Positions 44,798-59,740 of a stretch of 64,000 nucleotides of DNA are shown here, piece after piece (position 1 is the first letter of the stretch; each line of letters opens with the position of its first letter). Under the pieces are notes generated by a model. It saw nothing but the letters and a program-made list of their open reading frames with translations. It searched no databases and was not told the origin of the DNA. The stretch covers positions 67,755 through 131,754 of the forward strand of contig NZ_LMQC01000001.1 in NCBI RefSeq assembly GCF_001424485.1. Reading direction: 5' to 3'. This DNA comes from Modestobacter sp. Leaf380 (GTDB lineage: Bacteria; Actinomycetota; Actinomycetes; Mycobacteriales; Geodermatophilaceae). A program made the position numbers and the translations under genes.

Positions 44798-46405
44798 TCA
44801 GCCGCGGAGCCGGACGGCGTAGGTGAGGGCGTCGACCATCGCCAGCCAGGAGGCCTCGACGACGTTCTCGTGCACCCCGACGGTGGTCCACTCCCCCGCC
44901 TTGTCCGCGGTGTCCACCAGCACCCGGGTGGTGGCGCTGGTGCCGCCGGTCCAGCCCAGGATGCGGACCTTGTAGTCGGCCAGCTCGACGTCGGCCAGCA
45001 GGGGCCACCGGCCCACCAGGGCCGTCCGCAGCGCGGTGTCCAGGGCGTTGACCGGCCCGTTGCCCTCGCCGACGGTGACCACCCGCTCGCTGCCGCCGAC
45101 CCCGTCGGGCAGCAGCACCTTCACGACGGCCTCGCTGACCACCCGGCCGTCGGCCCGGTGCTCCACGGTGGTCCGCCAGCTCTCCAGCTCGAACAGCGGT
45201 ACCGGGGCGCCGGGCAGCTCCCCGCGCAGCAGCAGCTCGAAGGAGGCGTCGGCGGCCTCGTAGGACCAGCCCCGGGCCTCGCGCTCCTTCACCGCGGCCA
45301 CCACCCGGCCGACGGCGTCCCCCTGCCCGGCGAGGTCGACACCGAGCTCGCGGCCCTTGAGCTCGACCGAGGCCCGGCCGGCCATCTCGGTGACCAGGAT
45401 GCGCATGTCGTTGCCGACCACCACCGGGTCCAGGTGGTTGTAGAGCTCCGGGCTGACCTTGATGGCGCTGGCGTGCAGACCCGCCTTGTGCGCGAACGCC
45501 GAGGCCCCGACGAAGGGCTGGTGGTCGTCGGGGGTCAGGTTGGCCAGCTCGGCGACCGCGTGGCTGACCCGGCTCAGCTCCGCCAGGCACTCCTCCGGCA
45601 CGACCGGGAGCCCCATCTTGGTGACCAGGTTGCCGATCAGCGTGAAGGTGTCGGCGTTGCCGGCCCGCTCGCCGTAGCCGTTCGCCGTCCCCTGGACCTG
45701 GGTGGCCCCGGCCTCGACGGCGGCGAGGGAGTTGGCGACGGCGCAGCCGGTGTCGTCCTGGCAGTGGATGCCCAGCTGGCCCTCCACCCGGGCCCGGACG
45801 TCGGCGACCACCCGGCCGATGCCGCTGGGCAGCATCCCGCCGTTGGTGTCGCACAGCACGCCGACCTCGGCACCGGCGGCGAAGGCGGCGCGCAGGACGG
45901 CGACGCCGTGGTCGGGGTCGACGGCGTACCCGTCGAAGAAGTGCTCGCAGTCGACGAACACCCGCCGGCCGTGGCCGACCAGGAAGGCGACCGTGTCGGC
46001 CACCATCGCCAGGTTCTCCTCCGGCGTGGTGCGCAGGGCGTCCCGCACGTGCCGCAGGTCGGACTTGGCGACCAGGCAGACCACCGGTGCCCCGGAGTCC
46101 AGCAGCGCCCGCACCTGGGCGTCGTCCTCCACCGCGACCCCGGCCTTGCGGGTGGCGCCGAAGGCGACCAGCACCGCGTGCCGCAGCGTGAGCTCGGTGC
46201 GGGCGCGGGCGAAGAACTCGGTGTCCTTGGGCAGGGCCCCGGGCCAGCCGCCCTCGATGTAGGAGACCCCGACGTCGTCGAGCAGCCGGGCGACGGCGAG
46301 CTTGTCGGCCACCGAGTAGGTGATGCCCTCGCGCTGGGCGCCGTCGCGCAGGGTGGTGTCGAAGACCTGGACGACGGGGCCGACGGGGGTCTGCTGCTCG
46401 GTCAC
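44798..46405 (-). CDS. cimA: (R)-citramalate synthase
   Basis: Condenses pyruvate and acetyl-CoA to citramalate, opening the threonine-independent isoleucine route that continues with LeuCD and LeuB. 535 residues, the usual CimA length. The DRE-TIM catalytic motif VQVFDTTLRDGAQREGI (about residues 12-28), GGWPGALPKDTEFF, GIHCQDDTGCAVANSLAAVE (metal His/Asp) and TANGYGERAGNADTFTLIGN precede a C-terminal LeuA-type regulatory dimer domain (about 400-530). GTG has AGAGG 7 bases upstream. Preceded by a leader-peptide attenuator rich in Ile. Confidence 0.93.
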   Translation of the reverse strand: MTEQQTPVGPVVQVFDTTLRDGAQREGITYSVADKLAVARLLDDVGVSYIEGGWPGALPKDTEFFARARTELTLRHAVLVAFGATRKAGVAVEDDAQVRALLDSGAPVVCLVAKSDLRHVRDALRTTPEENLAMVADTVAFLVGHGRRVFVDCEHFFDGYAVDPDHGVAVLRAAFAAGAEVGVLCDTNGGMLPSGIGRVVADVRARVEGQLGIHCQDDTGCAVANSLAAVEAGATQVQGTANGYGERAGNADTFTLIGNLVTKMGLPVVPEECLAELSRVSHAVAELANLTPDDHQPFVGASAFAHKAGLHASAIKVSPELYNHLDPVVVGNDMRILVTEMAGRASVELKGRELGVDLAGQGDAVGRVVAAVKEREARGWSYEAADASFELLLRGELPGAPVPLFELESWRTTVEHRADGRVVSEAVVKVLLPDGVGGSERVVTVGEGNGPVNALDTALRTALVGRWPLLADVELADYKVRILGWTGGTSATTRVLVDTADKAGEWTTVGVHENVVEASWLAMVDALTYAVRLRG

Positions 46406-46441
46406 GGGGTGCCTCTCGAGGGGGGTGCGGGGCCGGACACG

Positions 46442-46467
46442 AAAAAACCCCCCGGGGTACGGAGGGT
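46442..46467 (-). terminator. cimA attenuator terminator
   Basis: Minus strand ACCCTCCG (46467-46460), 5-base loop, CGGGGGGT (46454-46447), then T's to 46442: a run of six T's in a GC-rich genome. It lies 36 bases before the cimA start and downstream of a leader peptide, so read-through rather than termination is needed to express cimA. Confidence 0.8.
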
Positions 46468-46469
46468 CG

Positions 46470-46497
46470 GCGCGCAGTCGGGGAGCTGACTGCGCGC
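46470..46497 (-). promoter_or_regulatory. cimA leader stem 1
   Basis: A perfect 10-bp stem (GCGCGCAGTC with GACTGCGCGC) and 8-base loop, starting at the third base of the leader peptide's TAG stop codon. A ribosome at the stop codon would melt it. Its loop region (46479-46485) can also pair with the 3' arm of the terminator (46448-46454), a possible alternative structure. Confidence 0.65.
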
Positions 46498-46526
46498 TAG
46501 GTGATGATCGTGCCGGCGGTGTGCAT
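46497..46526 (-). CDS. cimA leader peptide MHTAGTIIT
   Basis: A 9-residue open frame (ATG 46526 to TAG) with consecutive Ile-Ile-Thr codons (ATC ATC ACC) just before the stop. It sits between a promoter and an intrinsic terminator upstream of citramalate synthase, the committing enzyme of an isoleucine pathway, so stalling at the Ile codons would report isoleucyl-tRNA charge. CACCAT ends 8 bases before the ATG, so the leader mRNA is predicted to begin at or near this ATG. Function inferred, not shown. Confidence 0.65.
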   Translation of the reverse strand: MHTAGTIIT

Positions 46527-46534
46527 CGCCGCAG

Positions 46535-46564
46535 ATGGTGGCACCCGCGGTCCGCGAGGGGCAA
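46535..46564 (-). promoter_or_regulatory. cimA leader promoter
   Basis: Minus strand TTGCCC (46564-46559), 18-base spacer, CACCAT (46540-46535). Transcription would begin within a few bases of the leader-peptide ATG. Confidence 0.5.
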
Positions 46565-46616
46565 GCGCCCGAGGGCGCCCGCCGTCCGCGACGCGCCGGT
46601 CCCGGCCCCTGTTCGG

Positions 46617-46904
46617 CGCACGGGTGCGCACCGACAGCGCGGGTGCGCGCCCACTCCGCCTTCCCGGGCCCGGGGCCCGCGTGGGCGCGCACCAGCCGCG
46701 CGGCTGCGCGCCCCGGTCCCCCGCCGCCGTCCCGGGCTCGCGACCCGCGTGGGCGCGCACCGGCGGCGCGCGTGCGCCACGAGGCCGCCCGGGTTCTCCG
46801 GACAGCAGCGTGGGCGCGCACCGGCGGCGCGGGTGCGCCACGAGGCCGCCCGGGTCCCCCGGACAGCAGCGTGGGCGCGCACCCGCGGAGGGGTGCGCGC
46901 CCAC
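46617..46904. repeat. Array of about five palindromic units, including a 61-bp tandem duplication
   Basis: Units built on GTGGGCGCGCACC and its complement begin near 46617, 46681, 46749, 46810 and 46871. The copies 46749-46809 and 46810-46870 are head-to-tail 61-mers differing at only three positions. Each unit can fold into a GC hairpin; the final one is a perfect 14-bp stem. Probably amplification of a terminator-like hairpin downstream of leuB. Confidence 0.8.
46871..46904 (-). terminator. leuB terminator, perfect 14-bp stem
   Basis: GTGGGCGCGCACCC (46871-46884), loop GCGGAG, exact complement (46891-46904), 21 bases past the leuB stop on the minus strand. It is the last and most regular unit of the repeat array. 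Confidence 0.65.
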
Positions 46905-46925
46905 GGGGCGACGGTGCGGGTCGGG

Positions 46926-47948
46926 TCAGCCGCCGGCGAGGGCGGCCAGCCGGTCGCCGACCTCCGACGTGCGGACGGCGGCGCGCGGGTCCCGGGTGGA
47001 CAGGTCGAAGGCGACCGCGGCGTTGACCCGGCGGGCCTGGTCGGCTCGGCCCAGGTGGTCCAGCAGCAACCCGACCGACAGCACGGTGGCCGTGGGGTCG
47101 GCCTTGCCCTGCCCGGCGATGTCGGGCGCCGAGCCGTGCACCGGCTCGAACATCGAGGGGTTCACGCCCGAGGCGTCCAGGTTGCCGCTGGCGGCCAGCC
47201 CGATCCCCCCGGTCACGGCGGCGGCCACGTCGGTGACGATGTCGCCGAAGAGGTTGTCGGTGACGATGACGTCGTACCGGCTGGGGTCGGTCACGAAGAA
47301 CATCGCCGCGGCGTCGACGTGCTGGTAGGCGACCGCGACGTCGGGGAACTCCACCGACAGCTCCTCCACCGTGCGCGACCACAGCGACCCGGCGTGGGTC
47401 AGCACGTTGGTCTTGTGGATCAGCGTCAGGTGCTTGCGGGGGCGCAGGACGGCGCGCTCGAAGGCGTACCGGACGACCCGCTCCACCCCGAACGCGGTGT
47501 TCAGGCTGACCTCGGTGGCGACCTCGTGCGGGGTGTCGCGGCGCAGGACGCCGCCGTTGCCCACGTAGGGGCCCTCGGTGCCCTCGCGGACACACAGCAT
47601 GTCGATCTCGCCGGGGCTGGCCAGCGGGCTGGTCACGCCGTCGTACAGCTTGGCCGGGCGCAGGTTGACGTGGTGGTCGAGCTCGAAGCGCAGCTTGAGC
47701 AGCAGCCCGCGCTCCAGGATGCCGGCGGGCACGCTGGGGTCACCGACCGCGCCGAGCAGGATCGCGTCGTGCTGGCGCAGCTCGTCGAGCACGGTGTCGG
47801 GCAGCAGCTCACCGGTCCGCTGCCAGCGCGCGGCGCCCAGGTCGTAGGTGGTGGTCTCGACGTCCGGGGCGACCTCGCCCAGGACCTTGAGGCCCTCGGC
47901 CACCACCTCGGGGCCGATGCCGTCTCCAGGGATCACTGCCAGGCGCAT
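46926..47948 (-). CDS. leuB: 3-isopropylmalate dehydrogenase
   Basis: NAD-dependent oxidative decarboxylase (340 residues) for leucine, and for methylmalate in the citramalate route. [17 protein letters not shown] at the start, [30 protein letters not shown] (substrate Arg), [11 protein letters not shown] (catalytic Lys), [20 protein letters not shown] (metal Asp) and [20 protein letters not shown] (NAD site) are all intact. ATG with TAGCCT ending 8 bases upstream, predicted leaderless. Separated from cimA by the repeat-filled gap. Confidence 0.97.
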
Positions 47949-59635: not shown

Positions 59636-59667
59636 AAAAAACCCCTCGTGCCACGGGCACGGAGGGG
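59636..59667 (-). terminator. ilvB attenuator terminator
   Basis: An 11-bp stem (59656-59667 with 59642-59652, one bulged base) and 3-base loop, followed on the minus strand by six T's (59641-59636). It lies about 80 bases before the ilvB ATG, so it must be read through for expression. Confidence 0.85.
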
Positions 59668-59669
59668 CG

Positions 59670-59697
59670 AGCGCGTCGGTCGGTGGACCGGCGCGCT
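59670..59697 (-). promoter_or_regulatory. ilvB leader stem 1
   Basis: AGCGCG-C-CGGTC, loop CACC, GACCG-A-CGCGCT: 11 pairs with one mismatch. It begins on the last two bases of the leader-peptide TAG, exactly as in the cimA leader. Confidence 0.65.
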
Positions 59698-59740
59698 AGT
59701 CGATGAGTACGAGGAGGGTGGGGATCCCGGAACGCAGCAC
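59696..59740 (-). CDS. ilvB leader peptide MLRSGIPTLLVLID
   Basis: A 14-residue open frame from GTG 59740 to TAG, with codons for Leu, Ile, Leu, Leu, Val, Leu and Ile, the end products of the pathway. The frame continues upstream to GTG 59767 (PYEAHSVVV), but CACAGT ends 6 bases before GTG 59740 and gives a leaderless start there, matching neighbouring genes. Position between promoter and terminator fits a classic ilv attenuator. Confidence 0.75.
   Translation of the reverse strand: MLRSGIPTLLVLID

Follow-up and report, generated by a model that had tools for sequence, protein, structure and literature searches.

Anatomy of the cimA leader

The window, i.e., the whole stretch of 64,000 nucleotides from Modestobacter sp. 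Leaf380 that was analysed, contains on its minus strand the gene cimA (44798..46405, GTG start at 46405), which codes for a citramalate synthase of 535 amino acids (593.7 bits with TIGR00977, for which the cut-off is 450). Upstream of cimA, and on the same strand, lies leuB, the gene for 3-isopropylmalate dehydrogenase (46926..47948; NF002898, 580.2 bits against a cut-off of 393). An array of GC-rich, palindromic direct repeats of the type GTGGGCGCGCACC...GGTGCGCGCCCAC, spaced by 61-68 nt, occupies 46620-46908 between leuB and the cimA leader; at most one copy was seen by eye in six Klenkia relatives.

The leader is read on the minus strand as well. It opens with a putative promoter (46535..46564) consisting of TTGCCC at 46564-46559, a spacer of 18 nt and CACCAT at 46540-46535, which is followed after 8 nt by an ATG at 46526. 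The letters of this promoter are present as originally predicted, but a sigma-70 consensus scan over 46380-46920 found no promoter, and this is the weak part of the prediction. Transcription is predicted to start at or beside the ATG, giving a leaderless transcript. Among 100 aligned cimA leaders, the best -10-like hexamer lies 5-8 nt ahead of the chosen start codon in 90 of the 96 that could be scored, according to a loose score for which there is no control and which retains the best among several positions; this position fits a leaderless transcript, but does not prove it.

The ATG opens a frame of nine codons (46497..46526), MHTAGTIIT, which is read directly and is conserved in relatives. 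The control codons ATC ATC occupy 46508-46503, the last one ending 5 nt ahead of a first hairpin, stem 1, and the stop codon TAG (46499-46497) provides with its G the first base of that hairpin. Stem 1 (46470..46497) has the build GCGCGCAGTC - AGCTCCCC - GACTGCGCGC, in which the arms GCGCGCAGTC and GACTGCGCGC pair 46497-46488 with 46479-46470 in a perfect 10-bp helix closed by a loop of 8 nt. This loop occurs at 46487-46480, instead of the 46479-46485 given in the original prediction. A single free base separates stem 1 from an intrinsic terminator, a GC-rich hairpin of 9 bp (46446..46468) ending in a run of six T (46447-46442), and the GTG of cimA follows 36 bases past this run. Direct reading thus bears out the nine-residue frame with its tandem Ile codons near the stop, the perfect stem starting in the stop codon, and the terminator with its six T and its distance to cimA, all of which had been predicted beforehand. 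Folding and covariation agree with both hairpins: the 125-nt leader folds with -55.5 kcal/mol (z -4.10, none of 200 shuffled sequences being equally stable), and a terminator scan yielded three overlapping terminator-like matches, all corresponding to the same hairpin, against a mean of 0.0 in shuffled sequences.

Distribution of the leader among Actinomycetota

Among named relatives, the nearest ones found were Klenkia marina and K. taihuensis, whose CimA is 92% identical. In Klenkia, the leader precedes cimA in all seven loci holding the gene, that of the window included, and encodes the peptides MHTAGTIIT, MHTAGTIIIT, MHTVGTIVIT, MHTTGTIIIA, MHTTGTIIIT and, twice, MHTTGTITIT. A larger sample of 110 loci, with some species present twice, was collected by CimA similarity alone, independently of any leader model. 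In 93 of these loci, cimA is preceded by a short ORF whose last eight codons include two or more Ile, and the complete element was found by hand and by pattern in 94. It was not found in the other 16 (L044, L077, L086, L087, L088, L095, L100, L101, L103, L107, L112, L119, L125, L130, L131 and L135), of which L077 and L087 count as negative because their contigs end there. In L044, from the Geodermatophilaceae, cimA is nearly joined to leuB and no leader occurs. The isoleucine leader-peptide attenuator proposed for cimA from the window alone is accordingly upheld as regards its short frame, its Ile codons and its terminator, which are conserved in the Geodermatophilaceae and far beyond.

A covariance model was built from 39 leaders (alignment A1) hand-picked out of the 94 positive loci. 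In the genome to which the window belongs, it matches two sites at E <= 1, the cimA leader (82.3 bits) and a leader of the same build preceding ilvB (47.9 bits). The latter, located in the same window (59636..59740, minus strand), consists of VLRSGIPTLLVLID followed by a TAG-CGCG stem and a terminator. In a class-wide draw of 393 genomes, the model matches 241 at E <= 0.001, and TIGR00977 is present at E <= 1e-100 in 311 of the same genomes. Eighty RNA matches could be joined to a listed cimA, all of them located 32-175 nt upstream on the same strand, the other 70 of the 150 listed RNA matches having no partner among the listed cimA matches. The 70 remaining genomes that have a listed cimA were scanned again at E <= 0.01, which gave 32 more leaders. 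Together, a match no more than 400 nt upstream of cimA on the same strand occurs in 112 of 150 genomes (80 at E <= 0.001 and 32 at E <= 0.01), a figure that covers only the best 150 of the 311 cimA-bearing genomes. No match within 400 nt was found in 38 of these best-scoring 150, which comprise all 21 genomes of family f18 present in the set of 70, 11 of family f24, sized 1.2-1.9 Mb, three of family f25 and three singletons. Among 40 loci picked for their spread over families, partly with the match list in view, 30 carry a model match (two weak, at 24.9 and 29 bits). Streptomyces-like genomes (L192 and L208, the genus being inferred) also carry the element. Two genomes of family f13, G156 and G121, are absent among the TIGR00977 matches listed and harbour the element before ilvB (L227 and L250); in G156 it also occurs before leuA (L226) and leuS (L228).

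At the level of the phylum, 44 of 296 genomes, some of which belong to the same class, match the model at E <= 1e-4, including 32 located outside the class. Twenty sites outside the class were read. Fourteen of them precede an IlvB-like protein. Two, with Ile runs, precede a CimA-like protein (L268 and L272, 50 and 57% identity), and two others, with Ile/Val codons, precede a LeuB-like protein (L261 and L273), a CimA-like gene following about 1 kb further on. To judge from this arrangement, the attenuator may control a leuB-cimA operon at L261 and L273 (and at L274 and L275). The remaining two sites, L254 and L269, received no assignment. The leader of L269 contains Leu/Val codons (GLLVVVT, then TAG) ahead of an ORF holding MTKTALLIVDMQNDLAHPDGKGF, and this ORF showed no similarity to the proteins of the window at E 1e-8.

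Control codons and paired helices

A second alignment (A2) comprises 100 model hits upstream of cimA, including most of the training leaders or duplicates of them, so that its counts are conditional on a model which itself contains Ile columns. When the four codons up to the one that ends 5 nt ahead of stem 1 are counted, 89 of these leaders have two or three Ile, as compared with 2-4 of 100 at four neighbouring offsets and 0.16% at random positions of the same loci; codon slots 1, 2 and 3 are Ile in 72, 84 and 67 rows, respectively. In Pseudonocardia, in some relatives of Actinoplanes and in others, the stop codon lies further downstream, within stem 1, with an unchanged distance from the Ile codons to the stem, which indicates that the codon-stem distance, rather than the position of the stop, is what is kept.

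The control codons differ according to the gene that follows. Forty further model sites precede an IlvB-like protein (22), a leuS-type ORF (14), leuA (1) or cimA (2), one site having no ORF in reach. Thirty-six of them were aligned with the ilvB leader of the window, giving 37 sites (23 ilvB, 13 leuS-type and one leuA). In the 23 ilvB leaders, slots 4 to 1 are mainly Ile/Leu, Leu/Val, Val and Leu/Val/Ile, respectively, with GTA at slot 2 in 22 of them, and the spacing from codons to stem is the same as in the cimA leaders. The 13 leuS-type leaders display, by eye, runs of Leu codons, e.g., CTG CTC CTT, several of their rows being aligned one base out of frame, so that their slot table is partly wrong. 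Their assignment relies on the appearance of the ORF, together with TIGR00396 run on three of them, L228 scoring over the cut-off and L222 and L231, both partial proteins, under it. The protein following L226 is a 2-isopropylmalate synthase and its leader reads, by eye, KHLLLIESAR. With Ile before cimA, Ile, Leu and Val before ilvB and Leu before leuS, the control codons vary according to the product encoded downstream.

The choice among Ile codons is also peculiar. Outside the Geodermatophilaceae, the rare ATT accounts for 52 of 83 leader Ile codons against 26 of 574 Ile codons in cimA genes, and within the family for 7 of 98 against 1 of 479, 74 cimA genes having been measured in all. Such an excess is as expected if the leader were tuned for sensitivity.

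No CimA match at E <= 1e-100 was obtained in three Geodermatophilaceae genomes that are 99% complete (G004, G060 and G070). Each of them keeps a single model match of 43-50 bits, which by its score is at the level of the ilvB leaders, and no match of the cimA type was found in them; five relatives possessing cimA have a second, stronger match. Threonine ammonia-lyase scores above the TIGR01127 cut-off in all nine genomes checked and, on this ground, cimA probably offers a second road to 2-oxobutyrate.

Both hairpins covary among the cimA leaders. Over the 100 rows of A2, 96.4% of the cells fall in standard pairs and 10 of 17 pairs are changed on both sides; for stem 1, 94.8% of the cells are paired and both sides are changed in 6 of 10 pairs, and for the terminator 98.7% of the cells are paired. 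The covariation score of 0.317 was equalled by none of 500 shuffled alignments (0.133), and it falls to 0.02-0.09 when the partners are shifted by 1-3 columns; the score benefits from the fitting of the alignment to the structure, and kinship alone can beat shuffles. In the aligned leaders, stem 1 has the control codons on one side and the terminator on the other, and the gap between the two hairpins amounts to 0-1 nt in 89 of the 100 cimA rows, the length of the loop varying from 1 to 58 nt. Bases shared by stem 1 and the terminator, as in a classical overlap of helices, were not seen in these rows.

Proposed attenuation mechanism and known relatives

The leader combines, in a predicted ORF, codons for the amino acid of the downstream pathway with an intrinsic terminator located between this ORF and the gene, and on this evidence it is very probably an isoleucine-responsive, ribosome-mediated transcription attenuator. 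Citramalate synthase would then probably be made mainly when isoleucine is short. The transcript, starting at or beside the AUG at 46526, would be translated at once. When charged Ile-tRNA is plentiful, the ribosome would pass ATC ATC and reach TAG, with its leading edge over the 5' arm of stem 1, the terminator would form and RNA polymerase would halt before cimA. When Ile-tRNA is scarce, the ribosome would halt on the Ile codons with its leading edge at most at the base of stem 1, which would stay folded, and the polymerase would read through into cimA, the product of which leads to 2-oxobutyrate and isoleucine.

The leading edge of a ribosome lies 14 nt past the first base of the P site. 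With this edge assumed, about four bases of stem 1 come under the ribosome when the last Ile codon occupies the A site; halted two codons earlier, the ribosome does not get as far as the stem, and on the stop codon it covers nearly all of the 5' arm. On these distances, stem 1 would remain folded under starvation and would be opened under repletion. The least certain point is how a folded stem 1 would act on the terminator. The preferred conjecture is that the terminator, with a helix lying 0-1 nt from its base, cannot zip up in the RNA exit channel; the tightness of this junction, being conserved, suggests that closing of the terminator base is hindered once stem 1 is folded. A broader proposal, which is rather doubtful, is that a single old design of Actinomycetota has had its control codons swapped for each gene (Ile for cimA, Ile, Leu and Val for ilvB, Leu for leuS and leuA), and that antitermination proceeds without shared bases, the stem abutting the terminator base acting as a steric block that the ribosome on the stop codon would remove.

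Nearest-neighbour folds, which leave out the polymerase and kinetics, revealed no thermodynamic antiterminator or classical switch among the predicted folds of the 100 cimA leaders. The terminator has a mean P of 0.989 both without a ribosome and with either Ile stall. With the ribosome on the stop codon, its mean P is 0.900 (below 0.5 in 9 of 100 leaders, and 0.166 in the window leader), which is opposite to expectation. Other pairings were considered and rejected. Stem 1 could be prolonged into the base of the terminator via a bulged A (CUAG..AG) in 35 of 100 leaders. Pairing of the leader codons with the region behind the T run gave -12.89 for matched, -12.21 for mismatched and -10.48 for shuffled partners in 39 Geodermatophilaceae rows, the matched value being lower in 23 of the 39; in the other 61 rows it was no better than mismatched (-8.77 vs -9.02). 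In Klenkia and relatives, GGCACGA of the leader (46514-46508, minus strand) can pair with UCGUGUCC (46442-46435) at the end of the T run, with weak support for coevolution.

The main rivals of the abutting-helix step are loop pairing and a pause hairpin. According to the first, which had been put forward in the original prediction as an alternative fold, the loop (CUCCCC), once stem 1 is blocked, captures the 3' arm of the terminator (GGGGGG) as an antiterminator in a mutually exclusive pairing. Stem 1 loops are indeed 71% pyrimidine and, in the 92 rows where they measure 5-20 nt, pair with the 3' arm at a mean of -8.26 kcal/mol against -2.93 for leader windows, but shuffled loops do so almost equally well (-7.39 kcal/mol), which points mostly to C-richness. 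In addition, the predicted loss of the terminator is confined to the stop-codon state, which in the window leader is the opposite of what antitermination requires; a helix formed by capture would itself still end at the T run; and the loops of L113 and L126 seem, by eye, to hold a hairpin of their own. This part of the prediction is a weaker one, and loop capture is unlikely. In the second rival, stem 1 acts as a hairpin at which RNA polymerase pauses while the first ribosome catches up, and antitermination results from a contact between ribosome and polymerase with no RNA switch. The position of stem 1 between the control codons and the terminator is precisely where a pause would synchronise the two machineries; however, the 0-1 nt gap to the terminator in 89 of 100 rows and the 5-nt spacing from codons to stem are left unexplained, and we give this explanation a similarly small chance.

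Two further rivals concern regulation itself. The presence of leuB upstream on the same strand would suit an ordinary terminator of the leuB transcript accompanied by a chance short ORF, without any regulation. This is very improbable, since the Ile codons, the frame, the spacing and stem 1 are kept while other residues vary, the codons switch with the downstream gene, and the three relatives without a CimA match have no cimA-type match. A riboswitch or T-box acting on cimA in place of a translated leader, as a structured 5' region with a terminator might suggest, is scarcely tenable, as conservation tracks codons and frame and an Rfam search of the leader gave no family at gathering score, its two weaker matches, of 17.5 and 16.5 bits, falling far short of their cut-offs of 49.5 and 70.

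The cimA leader is thus best read as a member of the known branched-chain attenuators of actinobacteria, the common trait of which, i.e., codons that stop about 5 nt short of a GC stem, followed by an abutting terminator, it displays, the gap having been measured on the cimA rows only. In the attenuators of the enterobacterial trp, leu and ilv operons, the position of the ribosome on control codons located just before the first helix decides termination, and the antiterminator and terminator helices overlap. The layout with codons before the first helix is common to these attenuators and to the cimA leaders, but the overlap of helices is not seen in the latter.

Among actinobacteria, leaders for trp, cys, ilvB, leuA, leuS and ileS were treated by Seliverstov et al. 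2005 (PMC1262725), in the consulted part of which no cimA leader was seen. Similarly, the consulted part of a transcriptome survey of S. lividans TK24 (PMC8079986) lists eight leader peptides, none for cimA, and describes the ilvL and leuL2 leader ORFs as leaderless. In the open PMC literature, no description of a cimA or citramalate attenuator was found, subscription papers being mostly outside the search. As judged from sequence, the cimA attenuator is real, widely conserved, undescribed as far as searched, and ordinary in kind. The suggestion that it may be new holds for the cimA case, which appears undescribed, but not for the kind, already known before ilvB and leuS in actinobacteria.

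The closest counterparts are the ilvB attenuators, which in the consulted parts of PMC1262725, PMC8079986 and PMC13236596 likewise comprise branched-chain codons, a hairpin and an intrinsic terminator, and which are picked up by the cimA model itself at 23 of the 37 aligned sites, the leader in the window among them. They differ in mixing Ile, Leu and Val codons ahead of acetolactate synthase, whereas the cimA leaders use Ile. For ilvB1 of M. tuberculosis, the change of LVVI into AAAA abolished induction, and stalling was proposed to allow an antiterminator, with mutually exclusive hairpins, as far as the part consulted reports (PMC13236596, 2026), whereas stem 1 and the terminator of cimA share no bases. 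This result on a related leader counts for the attenuator reading of cimA, and a Corynebacterium ilvB-II paper, consulted in part, supports attenuation of ilvB by a uORF. In S. coelicolor, codon changes in the ilvB leader were without effect and those in the leuA leader gave inconsistent results, as told in the part of PMC1262725 consulted, which counts against that reading. The Streptomyces leuS attenuator (PMC1262725; leuL2 in PMC8079986, both in part) shares with cimA a short leader, a stem and a terminator, and 13 leuS-type sites align to the cimA model, but it uses Leu codons before a tRNA synthetase gene. The LEU element before leuA also presents consecutive control codons ahead of a related synthase, but it involves a pseudoknot and pairing to the Shine-Dalgarno box (PMC1262725, in part), and the leuA leader of S. 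lividans is, unlike that of cimA, devoid of a typical terminator (PMC8079986, in part).

By virtue of this leader, the citramalate route to isoleucine would, in many Actinomycetota and in Streptomyces-like genomes among them, be under transcriptional control by its end product. Equal in build and different in their codons, the cimA, ilvB and leuS leaders would amount to a natural codon-swap experiment, in which the step of antitermination becomes testable.
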